Positions 1,759 through 59,545 of a stretch of 64,000 nt of DNA are shown here, piece by piece. The DNA is taken from the NCBI GenBank assembly GCA_026395515.1, contig JAPLYN010000005.1, forward strand, positions 361,521 to 425,520, read 5' to 3'. The position numbers and the translations under genes were made by a program. Position 1 is the first letter of the stretch, and each line of letters begins with the position of its first letter. The stretch comes from Candidatus Peregrinibacteria bacterium (GTDB lineage Bacteria; Patescibacteriota; Gracilibacteria; UBA1369; LOWO2-01-FULL-3). The notes beneath the pieces were generated by a model. It was not told where the DNA came from. It did no database searches and was given only the letters and a program-made list of their open reading frames with translations.

Positions 1759-3741
1759 TTAATTTACTGGAATGATGGCGTTAATATCAGATCCTTTGAT
1801 ATCAAAAACCTTAACGCCCTTAATCAAAGCCTCAGTATTAGTAGAAATATCCTTTGCCCTTGGCTTCATAGCAGCCAAAGAGTTAATAAACATATTTTTT
1901 AAAATATTTTCTGCTCCATATTGAGCTTTAGTCCTAGAAGCCTGATTAGAAGTATCCATAAACAACTGTAAATTGTCATAAGAAGTTTGTCCATAATAAT
2001 TTTTTGCCTGAGAAAAGAATGCTGTTTCATAAGTATTAGCCAATTTAGAAGTAGCAGCATATTGAGTATTGTACTCCTGCAAATCTCCTTGTATCGTAGC
2101 CAAAGCCAAGTCCCCTTGATCAATTAAATTGTTCATCTCTTTTAGGTATTTATCTAGAGCTGCACGTCTATCTACAGCTAAATCCAACATGGAATAAAGA
2201 TCTACATTATAAATATTATTCATCTTCTCCAAAATCTGTACATATTCCACGAAACGCTCCTGCTTTAAATTCACAATTTCGCCAAAAATAAGTCCAGCAT
2301 CCACACCACCCATACTTCCAATAGAAGTAATAGGTTCAGCCTGAATTTGACCACCTTGTTTTTGATATTCAAGACCAAAAATATAGGAAGAAATCACATC
2401 ATAAGGTCTCTTATCAGATTTCACTTCATTCTGAGTAACAACGTTACGTTTCACAGCTTCCTTAGGTCCACCACTAGTACCAAAATTAAATCCTCCAAAT
2501 ATAAAGAACAAACCTCCAAGAACAAGAATCACTAAAATTACACTAAAGATAATAATTTTATTTTTAGTTATACCGGCATGTTCCAAAATCGTCCAAAAAC
2601 TTTCCTTAGCTTCAACACCAACATCAACTACTTGCTCAATCTTATCAGGGAAAACTGGGTCAATTTTTCTTTCTTCAACCTCACTAGCTTTAACTTCAAT
2701 TACTTCAGGCTTCGAATCAACTACATCATTTTCATCCTCAGTCACATTGCTATCACTAGAATCATTAAAATTAACTGACTTCGCTTCGTCAGATTCTCCC
2801 ACATCTTCTGGAGATTCAACAACCTCATTAACACCCTGATTAATATGAGGAACACTATGTGTCATCTCAGCCTCTCTTCTATCATCAACCGTAGAAGCAG
2901 GATCAGAAAGATCAAAAGGGTTAATTGGCTGTTCGTCCTTCTTTTCTTTATAAGCCGCAACATGATTATCTTCAAAAGGATTTACAGGTGTAACATTATT
3001 ATTCGAAGGAAAATCAAAAGGATTGATTGGCGCAACTGGAGGATTAGGAGCAATCTCTTCTGGCTCAATTGGAGCTGCTGGAACTTCTGAAATTTCTTGA
3101 ACATTTTCAAAATCTGGAACTTCCGGAATCTCAGGATTATCTGGGATTTCTGGAACTATATTTTCTTCAAGAGGAGGCTCTACCTCTTCAGAAGAAACAA
3201 CTTCTTCTTCCTTCGCAACCTCTTCCTCTTTAGCAATTTCTTCATCGCTAAAAATAGGTTCCTCAGGCTGTTCTTCATTTACATCATCATCAAAAGAAGG
3301 AACATCTCCACTTTCTTGAACAGATTGATCATAATCAAAAGGTGAAGCTACAACCTCTTTCACTTCTTTAATTACAGGTTTAACCTCTAAAGGCTTTTCC
3401 TCTTTCTTTACCTCATTTTGTTGAGGGAATTTTTGATCTAAGTTTTGATTAACAGTTCCTAAATTACTTTTTTTACGACGACGTCTTCTTCTTTTCTTTT
3501 TAAAAACAGCTTCAGCCTGACCTTCTTGGCCAGCCTTAAATCCCTGTTTAAACTCATTAATCTTATCTTTGGCTACTGCACCTTCAATCTTTTGCCAAAT
3601 CTTAGCCTTATCTTGGGCATTTTTATGATGATCAGCTTTGTGTTCGTTTTTCAGATCACGACGCTCATCTTTTTGATCGCCTGAACGATCATCATGACTT
3701 TGGTGTCCTCCTCCCTGATTTTGACCACCTGTTTGCATCAA
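1759..3741 (-). CDS. Acidic, low-complexity single-pass membrane protein of unknown function
   Basis: A 660-residue protein I cannot assign. Residues 1-75 are His/Gln/Asp/Lys-rich and charged, followed by a striking run of Lys/Arg (about residue 82-92, KKKRRRRRRKK). A long Pro/Glu/Val-rich acidic tract (about 110-380) contains repeated NPFD/NPFE motifs. One strong membrane segment lies at about 396-419 (IIIFSVILVILVLGGLFFIF). The C-terminal 240 residues look globular and helical. With no N-terminal signal, the long acidic and basic part is probably cytoplasmic and the C-terminal domain outside. The start could be Met1 or Met2. It is followed by the Rel gene on the same strand. Confidence 0.75.
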   Translation of the reverse strand: MMQTGGQNQGGGHQSHDDRSGDQKDERRDLKNEHKADHHKNAQDKAKIWQKIEGAVAKDKINEFKQGFKAGQEGQAEAVFKKKRRRRRRKKSNLGTVNQNLDQKFPQQNEVKKEEKPLEVKPVIKEVKEVVASPFDYDQSVQESGDVPSFDDDVNEEQPEEPIFSDEEIAKEEEVAKEEEVVSSEEVEPPLEENIVPEIPDNPEIPEVPDFENVQEISEVPAAPIEPEEIAPNPPVAPINPFDFPSNNNVTPVNPFEDNHVAAYKEKKDEQPINPFDLSDPASTVDDRREAEMTHSVPHINQGVNEVVESPEDVGESDEAKSVNFNDSSDSNVTEDENDVVDSKPEVIEVKASEVEERKIDPVFPDKIEQVVDVGVEAKESFWTILEHAGITKNKIIIFSVILVILVLGGLFFIFGGFNFGTSGGPKEAVKRNVVTQNEVKSDKRPYDVISSYIFGLEYQKQGGQIQAEPITSIGSMGGVDAGLIFGEIVNLKQERFVEYVQILEKMNNIYNVDLYSMLDLAVDRRAALDKYLKEMNNLIDQGDLALATIQGDLQEYNTQYAATSKLANTYETAFFSQAKNYYGQTSYDNLQLFMDTSNQASRTKAQYGAENILKNMFINSLAAMKPRAKDISTNTEALIKGVKVFDIKGSDINAIIPVN

Positions 3742-3880: not shown

Positions 3881-4945
3881 ATGGCAAGCTCAAGCCTAAA
3901 CAATTCATTAAGTGGCGGTCAAATAGCTACTGATGGAAAAAGCATTACAAATTCAGGTGGAACAATAGATTTAAGTAACATCAGTAGTACTGTAGTTAGC
4001 AAATTCATAGATTTTGCTGAAGCTGTAATAGTTTTGGTTGTAATGTTCTTCATAATTCATTGGGTAAAAAAATACATAGCCAAGATTGAAACTCAACACG
4101 ATCAACAAAGAACAGCCCTAAACGTAGTAGAGAAGCTAGTGGTAGGGTTCATTATGGTAATTGGTGTAACAATCGCCTTAAAGATAGTTGGAATAGATAT
4201 AAGCGTACTAGTTGGAGTAGGACTCGTCGGATTAAGCTATGCCCTAAAAGATATCATTCAAAATTACGTTGCTGGTCTTCTAATCTTCATAAAAGCCCCA
4301 TTTAAAATTGGAGATATCGTTAAAATCAAAAACTATGTGGGCCGTGTAGATAAGATGGAATTCCAATCTACAAGCCTCAAAACATTCGATCACCGTGATA
4401 TCACAATCTACAATTCAGATATTATGACCCAGTCTATAGAGAACTATTCTCGTCACAATATGCGTCGTTTAGAAATAGATGTAAGTCTTGGATATGGCAG
4501 TGATGTACAAAAAATAACAAATATTATTAGCGCCATCTTGGCCAACAATACTTCTGTACTAAAGGAACCTAAATCCTCAATTTCCTTCAAGAGTTTTACT
4601 AGCAACAGTATGATAGTAAAAGTAAAATTCTGGGTAAATGTTCCTTCAAATTTCTTAGAAATTCGTTCAGACATTGCTTGGAAGATTAACCAAGCATTCG
4701 ATGAATCTACAATCTTTGGACCATACGAACGTGGATTCCAAACAGCAAATGATTTTACTATTAACACAGAACGTCAAAAAAGAATTAAAGAATTTTATAG
4801 CAATCCCCAATATTCAGGTGCAGCCCCTGCTCCAGCCAGTGCTGCAGTAATACCAGCAGTTCCAGTTCTTGATGCCAATGGACAACCAATCCCAGTGGAA
4901 GTAGTTTCAGACACAGATGAACCTGAAATTTACGATGATTTGTAA
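3881..4945 (+). CDS. mscS: MscS-family small-conductance mechanosensitive channel
   Basis: A 354-residue protein with three predicted membrane segments (about 45-64, 85-104, 107-125). The third is the pore helix and runs into the MscS beta domain: GLSYALKDIIQNYVAG, then FIKAPFKIGDIVKIKNYVGRV, closely matching the family signature around the pore and upper vestibule. The channel opens under membrane tension to release solutes on osmotic downshift. The C-terminal tail from about residue 300 is Ala/Pro-rich and acidic and is not part of the conserved fold. Its stop codon is in the same frame as the next gene's open frame. Confidence 0.93.
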   Translation: MASSSLNNSLSGGQIATDGKSITNSGGTIDLSNISSTVVSKFIDFAEAVIVLVVMFFIIHWVKKYIAKIETQHDQQRTALNVVEKLVVGFIMVIGVTIALKIVGIDISVLVGVGLVGLSYALKDIIQNYVAGLLIFIKAPFKIGDIVKIKNYVGRVDKMEFQSTSLKTFDHRDITIYNSDIMTQSIENYSRHNMRRLEIDVSLGYGSDVQKITNIISAILANNTSVLKEPKSSISFKSFTSNSMIVKVKFWVNVPSNFLEIRSDIAWKINQAFDESTIFGPYERGFQTANDFTINTERQKRIKEFYSNPQYSGAAPAPASAAVIPAVPVLDANGQPIPVEVVSDTDEPEIYDDL

Positions 4946-56865: not shown

Positions 56866-57896
56866 CTAGGAAGCCTTATTATCTGTTAATTTTTCAAGCA
56901 GAAACCAATTGAAATATTTTTGTTTTTTCTCGTTGCAATGACTCTTTATCAATCCACTGTAACTGGAAATATTGCTGGAATTTAGTCTCGTCTGGGCGCG
57001 CATAAAGCTTCTTTTATTTAAATTTCTACCAGAGAGCCAGAATTTGATGCCGAGAAATTTAAGACCATGCGATGGCTTGAGAATTTTGTCGCTTTTGGGA
57101 TTCACAACTAATTTCAATTTATTATTCAAAAAATTGGTGACTTGTGTGCGAAATAATCTCAACTTTTCCAGATCATTTTCAACAATAATAAAATCATCGC
57201 CGTAGCGGAGGTACGAGCCCGCCTGCAATTCATGCTTAACAAATCTATCCAATTCGTTCAAATAAATATTGGCAAAAATCTGGCTGGTAAGATTGCCGAT
57301 TGGCATGCCGATTTTGCCGCCACCCGTAGAATTGAAACTGAAAATTATTTCTTTCAACAAATTTAAAGTTGTACTATCTTTGATACGAAATGAAAGAATT
57401 TTAAGCAAAATCTCTTGATCCACACTGTCAAAAAACTTTTTCACATCACATTTCCAGATGCAGGAAGAAGGCTTACACAAGCCATTTTTCTCGCGCCTGT
57501 GTGTGTGTGTGTGTGTGTAACAGAGCGCTTCAGAAAGCAAGCTGTTCTTTCAATGGCTCCCAACAATCCCTTCCCTTTGCGACAAGACCAAGCATCATAA
57601 ATAAAAGTTTTGTCGTAAATATTTTCCAAATAATCGTAGATCAATCGGTGAACTACGCGATCGCGAATATGAGCGACGGAAATTTCGCGACGCTTATTAT
57701 CATTAACAATAAATTTTCGGTAAGTGCCATGACGATAATTTCCGGAATTGAGGTCTCTAAAAAGAGTAGACAAATTTTTCTCGAGATAATACTGAAAATG
57801 ATGCAGTTCATCAGTCGCTTTTTTGCCTTTTCTGAACTCTCTCCAACTCCTCCAAATATTTTTTAAACTTAAATCTATGGATTCACTACCAATCAT
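56866..57896 (-). CDS. DGR reverse transcriptase, reading frame split at an AC repeat
   Basis: Frame 1 runs from ATG 57896 to a stop at 57441 (IWRSWREFRKGKK; ISVAHIRDRVVHRLIYDYLE; WSCRKGKGLLGAIERTACFL). Frame 2 continues to 56866 (WKCDVKKFFDSVDQEILL for motif A; GMPIGNLTSQIFANIYLNEL, with the DGR-typical IGNLTSQ; YLRYGDDFIIV, the catalytic YxDD motif; GLKFLGIKF). The switch lies exactly at a 21-nt AC tract, offset by -1. Removing one dinucleotide gives a continuous 342-residue protein with an extra His-Thr run between the RKGKG motif and motif A. The enzyme copies the template RNA with adenine mutagenesis. As written it is off, pending tract change or frameshifting. Confidence 0.93.
57498..57518 (-). 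repeat. Simple sequence repeat (AC)10A within the RT gene
   Basis: A 21-nt perfect dinucleotide tract encoding a His-Thr run, flanked by CTGTT and GGCGCG on the coding strand. It is the junction of the two RT frames. A tract of 19 or 25 nt would keep RT in frame; 21 nt does not. Confidence 0.95.
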
Positions 57897-58221
57897 AAAT
57901 AAAACTTATGAAGCCTACAAAAATATTATAGAGCTAAATATCCACATCACAAAACACAATAGATACGGCCTGGGAACGAGCTTGGAAAATTCTATAGTTG
58001 AATGTCTGGAAGAACTAATCATGACTAAAAACGCCCCCAAAACACTCAAGGCGGGATATCTCATTAGAGCCAGCAGCAAGCTGGAAATATCGACTTTAAA
58101 ACTCCGCCTACTCCTGGAACTGGCCATCGCCAATGAAACAAATATATTCCAAATCCAAGCAAAATTAGCCGAAATAGGCCGTATGCTTGGCGGTTGGCTA
58201 AAATCTGTCCAAAGTTTATAG
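57877..58221 (+). CDS. avd: DGR accessory variability determinant (Avd)
   Basis: A 114-residue four-helix-bundle protein from ATG 57877 (MDSLPIINKTYEAYKNII). Upstream frame is not protein-like. The family C-terminal signature is clear (AKLAEIGRMLGGWLKSV, close to the AEVGRILGSW of the Bordetella phage Avd), with RYGLGTSLENSIVECLEELI and helix 3 AGYLIRASSKLEISTLKLR. Avd forms a barrel pentamer that binds the RT and template RNA and is needed for retrohoming. Here it lies on the strand opposite to TR and RT; its start overlaps the RT start by 20 bp and its stop ends one base before the TR. Confidence 0.92.
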   Translation: MDSLPIINKTYEAYKNIIELNIHITKHNRYGLGTSLENSIVECLEELIMTKNAPKTLKAGYLIRASSKLEISTLKLRLLLELAIANETNIFQIQAKLAEIGRMLGGWLKSVQSL

Positions 58222-58497
58222 ACCCTTATCAGGCGACGCACGCCGCGATTATCATTCTCATTGTTCTGATTGTCATTGTTGACGTTAGAGTTCTGATTGT
58301 TAGGATTGAAGTTTACATTACGAGGCAACGACGGCGCCATGTTTGATGAAGATTGTCCGTTTCTACCTTTGCAGTCCGACTACCGCAAGGTAGGCGCAAC
58401 CGCGCAGTAGGCATTGGTTTGCATTATTTCACCCGGTCTAGCTCCGCTAGTGACGGAGCAGCCAAGGTAACCTTCACTCATACCTAAGGGTCTATAT
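58217..58497 (-). ncRNA. Candidate DGR template RNA with closing stem
   Basis: A perfect 12-bp inverted repeat brackets the TR: TATAGACCCTTA (58217-58228) and TAAGGGTCTATA (58485-58496). On the minus-strand RNA this would pair the 5' end with the bases just after the TR. Inside, 5' of the TR, are hairpins GCTCCG/CGGAGC (58441-58459) and CTACC/GGTAG (58380-58393). A CATAAT -10-like box at 58504-58509 places a start at about 58497, exactly at the closing stem; its -35 is weak. The RNA's 3' arm overlaps the avd stop codon. Confidence 0.55.
58222..58334 (-). repeat. DGR template repeat (TR)
   Basis: 113 bp, aligned without gaps to the VR at 58665-58777. Read on the minus strand it holds 14 AAY codons (Asn), whose A-mutagenesis gives many amino acids without stop codons. 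All 22 differences from the VR are at TR adenines (22 of 37). The A-free GC-rich stretch 58230-58248 near the 3' end fits the initiation-of-mutagenic-homing region. Confidence 0.95.
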
Positions 58498-58651: not shown

Positions 58652-59545
58652 CTAAGCCTTTTCAACCCTTAGCAGGCGACGCACGCCGCGAGAATCAACC
58701 TCACCGTACTGAAGGTCATCGCAGACGAGAGAGCCCTGATTGTTAGGATCGAAGAAAACATCACGAGGCAACGACGGATTTTCTTCTGACTCCAACCAAG
58801 ATGAACGCCATTCACTTTTATCAGGAGATTGTACAAAGTGTTTTCCTGTATGACTTTCATATTGTTGAATTTCTTCACTCTTGTCGTATGGTTCGGTGTA
58901 CGGGAACATTTCGTAACCTGTTGATTGACGTTTACCATCTTCACCAGAGATTAATTTACCGGTCATATCGTTTTTATCGTGTTTGTACAAAACTCTATCA
59001 CGTGTATTTTTGTAGTTCATCCCTTTCATCACCGGCTCATCTCCACGGTCGGAAATTAAAGGTCTGCCTTGTGCATCCACTCCAAACAATTGACCACCTT
59101 GTTCCATAGCTTGGGCAAGAGCAAGATAATGACCCTCATTTGCGAGTAAACGAGTTTGTATATATGCCCATGAAATTTTAGATTTTAGAGTCGGATCGGC
59201 GTCAAAATCTGCTTTGAAAGTTTTAAGGCGTGGGTCTACTTCTACAGATTCAGTAGGTGCTACAACCGCCTTCGCGGCTTGCCCCACCTCGGCAACAACA
59301 GCTTTTTCTGCTCCCTGTTCTTTTGCAATTGCAGATCTTAAAGCTTCAATGTCGTTATCCTTTCTTCTGGCAAAAACAATTGGATCCACTTTAACTCCAG
59401 TCTGTTCTAACTGAATTCTAGCAATTTCAATCAAATTTTTTGCATCAGAAACTAACTTAGATTCTGGAGAATCAAATTCTGTTTGGCGCTTTTGAGGGCC
59501 AAGTTTTTCTGCGTCGTAACCTTCAGGCAATTGATTCAATTCCAT
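58652..59545 (-). CDS. DGR target protein with variable C-terminal CLec-type domain
   Basis: A 297-residue protein without signal peptide or membrane helix. The N-terminal half is helical (about 25-150); the C-terminal half has the DGR target-fold pattern (KISWAYIQTRLLANEGHYLALA; KGMNYKNTRDRVLYK; EWRSSWLES) and ends with the variable part and the constant RGVRRLLRVEKA. Compared with the TR, 13 residues differ, 12 of them at Asn (AAY) codons, now Asp, Phe, Gly, Leu, Cys, Tyr, Val or Ser. It has its own strong promoter. A cytoplasmic or non-classically exported binding protein is likely; the ligand is unknown. Confidence 0.9.
   Translation of the reverse strand: MELNQLPEGYDAEKLGPQKRQTEFDSPESKLVSDAKNLIEIARIQLEQTGVKVDPIVFARRKDNDIEALRSAIAKEQGAEKAVVAEVGQAAKAVVAPTESVEVDPRLKTFKADFDADPTLKSKISWAYIQTRLLANEGHYLALAQAMEQGGQLFGVDAQGRPLISDRGDEPVMKGMNYKNTRDRVLYKHDKNDMTGKLISGEDGKRQSTGYEMFPYTEPYDKSEEIQQYESHTGKHFVQSPDKSEWRSSWLESEENPSLPRDVFFDPNNQGSLVCDDLQYGEVDSRGVRRLLRVEKA
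58665..58777 (-). repeat. DGR variable repeat (VR)
   Basis: The 113-bp 3' end of the target gene. Identical to the TR at all 76 non-adenine positions and at 15 of 37 adenine positions. The stop codon follows about 4 codons after the end of the repeat. Confidence 0.95.

Follow-up and report, generated by a model that had tools for sequence, protein, structure and literature searches.

The window (the whole stretch of DNA analysed, 64,000 nt) belongs to a 1.3-Mb genome; among named relatives, the nearest are Candidatus Peribacteria/Peregrinibacteria MAGs. Its reverse transcriptase (RT) gene is present as two open reading frames on the minus strand, in different frames, and the overlap of the two falls at a repeat tract (Table 1). 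When the sequence was read directly, the plus strand of the tract was T(GT)10, giving (AC)10A on the minus strand. A preliminary description had stated that this tract splits the RT into two frames and that an altered count of AC units gives one 342-residue protein, the rest of the gene being undamaged. The split was borne out by the sequence and the ORF positions; on read-through, another number of repeat units yielded a single RT frame of about 342 residues without further lesion, and no additional stops or frameshifts were found in the window RT gene. The tract is the sole perfect dinucleotide tract of such length in the 64-kb window and the only site of ten AC units across the 1.3-Mb genome. 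The RT is of the diversity-generating retroelement (DGR) type, with IGNLTSQ (matching [ILV]GxxxSQ) and YGDD in the C-terminal ORF in addition to the RVT_1 match.

Table 1. Features of the DGR locus in the window.
Feature	Position	Strand	Evidence or remarks
C-terminal RT ORF with motif A, IGNLTSQ, YGDD	56866..57540	-	Pfam RVT_1 51.3 bits; conserved in relatives
N-terminal RT ORF, fingers region	57441..57896	-	Out of frame past the tract; dN/dS about 0.04-0.23
(AC)10A tract, proposed slippage switch	57498..57518	-	RT loop before motif A; relatives have repeats of other lengths and units in the same loop
bAvd-like accessory gene	57877..58221	+	Pfam bAvd 40.4 bits (cut-off 40); divergent from RT, 5' ends overlap
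Template repeat (TR)	58222..58334	-	TR/VR comparison
DGR-diversified target gene, 297 aa	58652..59545	-	ORF; VR at C-terminus
Variable repeat (VR), 3' end of target gene	58665..58777	-	TR/VR comparison

The RT neighbourhood constitutes a complete DGR with a bAvd-like gene, TR, VR and target gene, the Avd accessory protein being encoded on the opposite strand. Within the 113-nt TR/VR core, changes were found at 22 of the 37 template adenines and at none of the 76 other bases, so that the mismatches are confined to adenine. DGR targets are expected to carry the VR in a C-type lectin fold; the target protein here gave no match in the Pfam search. A remote second VR (G000:C4:39599-39719, corresponding to 3100-3220 on the minus strand of L191, G000:C4:36500-42500) lies in a paralogous target gene; it differs from the TR at 18 adenines and 12 other bases, and looks like an older diversification. 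The avd and RT genes point away from each other, their 5' ends overlapping or adjoining, and the TR is located past avd on the RT strand, so an RNA extending from the TR to the RT would be antisense to avd. The same divergent avd/RT layout was seen in L021, L031, L061, L212-L215 and L245-L253.

Orthologous RTs were compared, a check that had been proposed in the preliminary description, with homologues drawn from GTDB contigs and from order-level (89) and class-level (353) genome sets. In a clade of about 13 RTs, repeats of varied length, frame and unit were found in the same RT loop, which follows ...AIERT and precedes motif A (WKCD) (site 1); tract-free relatives have a 12-residue loop at this site. 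Among the Peribacteria-type relatives the units were (AC)n, (CT)17 and C8, and the lengths differed as well. The RT is in frame in L003 (G027) and L011 (G062). One extra base modulo 3 is present in L005 (G029), L008 (G001), L009 (G082, C8) and L010 (G076), and two in the window, L006 (G023), L012 (G053, (CT)17) and L013 (G071). All three frames occur within one genus (species G027, G023 and G029). No other lesion was seen in the ten tract-bearing site-1 RTs, the decayed G015 copy excepted. The contigs of G009 and G002 end at or near the site-1 tract. As in a simple-sequence contingency locus, the repeat lies in a coding region and the gain or loss of units shifts the frame; length and frame varied, and the gene body was conserved, in a comparison made between species, in which the length in any single MAG consensus may be wrong.

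At a second site, just 5' of the GxPxGN motif, AC tracts were found in three RTs (L021 and L031, both in G083, and L061 in G076), all of them out of frame; on the RT tree these account for at least two independent gains, distinct from the site-1 tracts. L044, which has a T-run frameshift, was left out of the tract cases, though it is grouped with tract rows in the tree. A G9 tract (102-110) is located at the 5' end of two paralogous DGR RTs, L030 and L046 (G053); read from the upstream ATG the RT frame is off, and this may be another switch. Other candidates were discarded. L014/L041/L056, considered as a further split RT, proved to be a truncated remnant, as did L188 and L189, and in L060 (G015:C64) 1-1200 the TR is fused directly to the 3' part of the RT, apparently by a deletion inside the DGR cassette. 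A search of viral contigs gave one weak, irrelevant match.

In other lineages a tract of this kind is present in avd, which makes the finding wider than the preliminary description. In 12 cassettes of other Patescibacteria lineages a long AC tract lies directly 3' of the avd start codon, with the ATG 11 to 48 nt upstream of the tract. The gene is in frame in two of these cassettes (L213, L246) and out of frame in nine, and in one (L247) it is cut by the contig end. The contig of G1031 breaks at or near the tract.

The genomic distribution of long repeats was determined by pattern search, with a threshold of at least eight AC units in 99 relatives and nine units in the wider scans (class, phylum and the class of G517). 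In the 99 related genomes all tracts of at least eight AC units fall within DGR RT genes, and in every case AC is on the coding strand; the window tract is therefore not a matter of chance. About 1000 genomes yielded 33 loci with long AC tracts, 22 of them in a DGR RT (10) or after the avd start codon (12). With DGR cassettes set at 0.15% of the genome, the binomial P for 22/33 is about 1e-54, a figure that illustrates scale, as related loci are not independent. The 11 tracts elsewhere are in type IV pilin-like genes (G331, G334), an adhesin-like gene (G759), a methyltransferase-like gene (G997), at two sites in G831, and in G295, G348, G562, G1004 and G1027. CT8 tracts numbered four in the 99 genomes, one being in a DGR RT, so the enrichment is mainly for AC.

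The AC tracts in L148 (G331; 4106-4144) and L149 (G334; 4573-4593), from the same class, are in type IV pilin-like genes at the extreme N-terminus and are likely to be further contingency loci. AC tracts near the N-terminus were also found in a Tat-signal-like gene (L257, G831; 3495-3531), an adhesin-like secreted protein gene (L244, G759; 3617-3653) and a methyltransferase-like gene (L250, G997; 3550-3568). In G094 (L151/L258) a CT tract at 2365-2397 precedes a DGR target gene by about 140 bp; the VR of this gene differs from the TR at 15 of 55 adenines and 0 of 129 other bases; the tract is a possible transcriptional switch of the target.

Among the 24 scorable genes (RT and avd), 4 were in frame and 20 out of frame, which is somewhat above two thirds (one-sided P 0.06). 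The excess is compatible with random frames and could also mean that the off state is favoured. Both halves of the RT are under purifying selection, with NG86 dN/dS of about 0.04-0.23; for L005 against L006, both out-of-frame alleles, the value is 0.05-0.08. Pooled TR/VR comparisons gave changes at 318 of 539 adenines and 12 of 1322 other bases for 17 out-of-frame loci, and at 73 of 127 adenines and 3 of 296 other bases for 4 in-frame loci; because the segment finder penalised non-adenine mismatches, the absolute rates are low estimates, and both groups were treated alike. By this measure the VRs of the out-of-frame group were as fresh as those of the in-frame group. An older VR, with 8/88 non-adenine mismatches, was found in the out-of-frame locus L251. 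Most out-of-frame genomes therefore copied the VR from the TR recently, as would not be possible with a long-dead RT or Avd.

A structure was predicted for the in-frame RT of L011. The mean pLDDT was 84.7, whereas the tract loop (130-137) was below 50 and lay peripheral to the well-predicted secondary structure; the best PDB fold match of the model was the RT of a DGR ribonucleoprotein (8ub7). Judging by this model, the tract is probably in a flexible loop where the number of units can vary without harm to the fold.

Slippage at short repeats is established for contingency loci. It is very probable that the tract in the window is a simple-sequence contingency locus by which the DGR RT is phase-varied. 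The slippage switch suggested in the preliminary description gains strong support from relatives in which the tracts differ in length, frame and unit while the gene is intact and constrained. AC units would be gained or lost by slipped-strand mispairing at replication, and the downstream two thirds of the RT would be shifted into or out of frame, presumably in a reversible manner within a population. Cells in frame would make the RT, which would tolerate the tract as a flexible His-Thr loop before motif A, and the VR of their target protein would be open to hypermutation. In out-of-frame cells the RT would be cut short ahead of its catalytic motifs; such cells would be expected to lose retrohoming and would keep their current VR. 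The same logic could operate in other Patescibacteria through the AC tract just past the avd start codon. In the reconstituted BPP-1 DGR, inactivation of either bRT or Avd reduced retrohoming to background (PMC12875486). Together with the biology of slippage, this need for bRT and Avd makes it likely that shifts of the RT or avd frame turn targeted hypermutation on and off.

The two frames could instead be joined at the tract by programmed ribosomal frameshifting or by slippage during transcription, with a constant expression level, as would suit the conservation of the downstream frame despite its being out of frame and the presence of fresh VRs in out-of-frame genomes. However, the relation between the ORFs is not constant across relatives: RT and avd alike have alleles in frame and in both other frames, and the -1 ribosomal frameshift raised in the preliminary description could not serve both non-zero frames plus the in-frame alleles. 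Nor could one signal serve units that change among AC, CT and C, and recoding is considered very unlikely. Slightly less credible again is a pseudogene early in decay, with the tract merely marking the first lesion. Decayed, truncated DGR remnants do exist in some relatives (G003, G015, G032 and G038), DiGReF noted scattered DGR RTs that had intact repeats but were frameshifted or truncated (PMC3521204), and early decay could account for part of the out-of-frame set. The window RT gene, in contrast, shows neither more lesions nor relaxed constraint; the other site-1 RTs, the decayed G015 copy excepted, are similarly free of lesions outside the tract, dN/dS is low in both halves, the same clade has the in-frame members L003 and L011, and tracts recur in several lineages at particular positions of two genes.

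An error of assembly or sequencing in the tract length, with a gene that is really intact, is more doubtful still. The genomes are MAGs, and the contig breaks in G009, G002 and G1031 would agree with such an error, which the preliminary description had also considered, but it cannot explain same-site tracts of varied length and unit in independent assemblies from different projects; the recurrent repeat is real even if single lengths are wrong. Least probable of all is a two-chain RT with separately translated ORFs. Conservation of both halves and the length of the C-terminal ORFs speak for it, yet the start codon of the C-terminal frame is not conserved, being absent before motif A in 4 of 8 out-of-frame alleles, and the close relatives L003 and L011 are single-chain, as are the tract-free RTs.

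The locus resembles known DGRs (BPP-1 type; clade 2 of Roux et al. 2021, PMC8144416) in its IGNLTSQ RT, bAvd-like gene and adenine-only TR/VR mismatches, and differs from them in the frame-breaking simple repeat in RT (here) or avd (other lineages), in the avd gene divergent from RT, and in the position of the TR past avd, on the strand of the RT. Clade 2, a Patescibacteria-restricted group, is given as the closest known system and not as an assignment of the window RT. With the contingency loci of Haemophilus, Neisseria and Campylobacter (PMC2651432, PMC11868660) are shared a short coding repeat whose length sets the frame, a position often just past the start codon, a constrained gene body and frames that differ among relatives; the cases known so far concern surface structures or modification enzymes, whereas here the gene that is switched is a targeted mutator, in Patescibacteria. 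RTs of the DiGReF survey likewise have a broken frame with intact-looking TR/VR (PMC3521204), but were treated there as isolated inactivations or possible sequencing errors, while those described here recur at repeat tracts, with all three frames represented and two genes affected. In openly licensed papers no report was found of a DGR with phase variation, slipped-strand mispairing or a contingency repeat; the DGR and the contingency locus are each known, and a contingency switch on a targeted mutator was not found reported in that literature.

DGR hypermutation in Patescibacteria is likely to be widely under a slippage switch, with several origins and no fewer than three positions (two loops of the RT and the N-terminus of avd), such that lineages mostly in the off state would keep the target fixed and occasional on-switchers would diversify it. 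A contingency locus on a targeted mutator would be a second-order diversity system, in which a random switch controls a directed one. Tract length in ordinary metagenome reads would tell the on/off state of the DGR in each population, for comparison with VR diversity. DGR clade 2 is reported to have lower-than-average activity (PMC8144416), and the switch may, as a guess, bear on this low activity.
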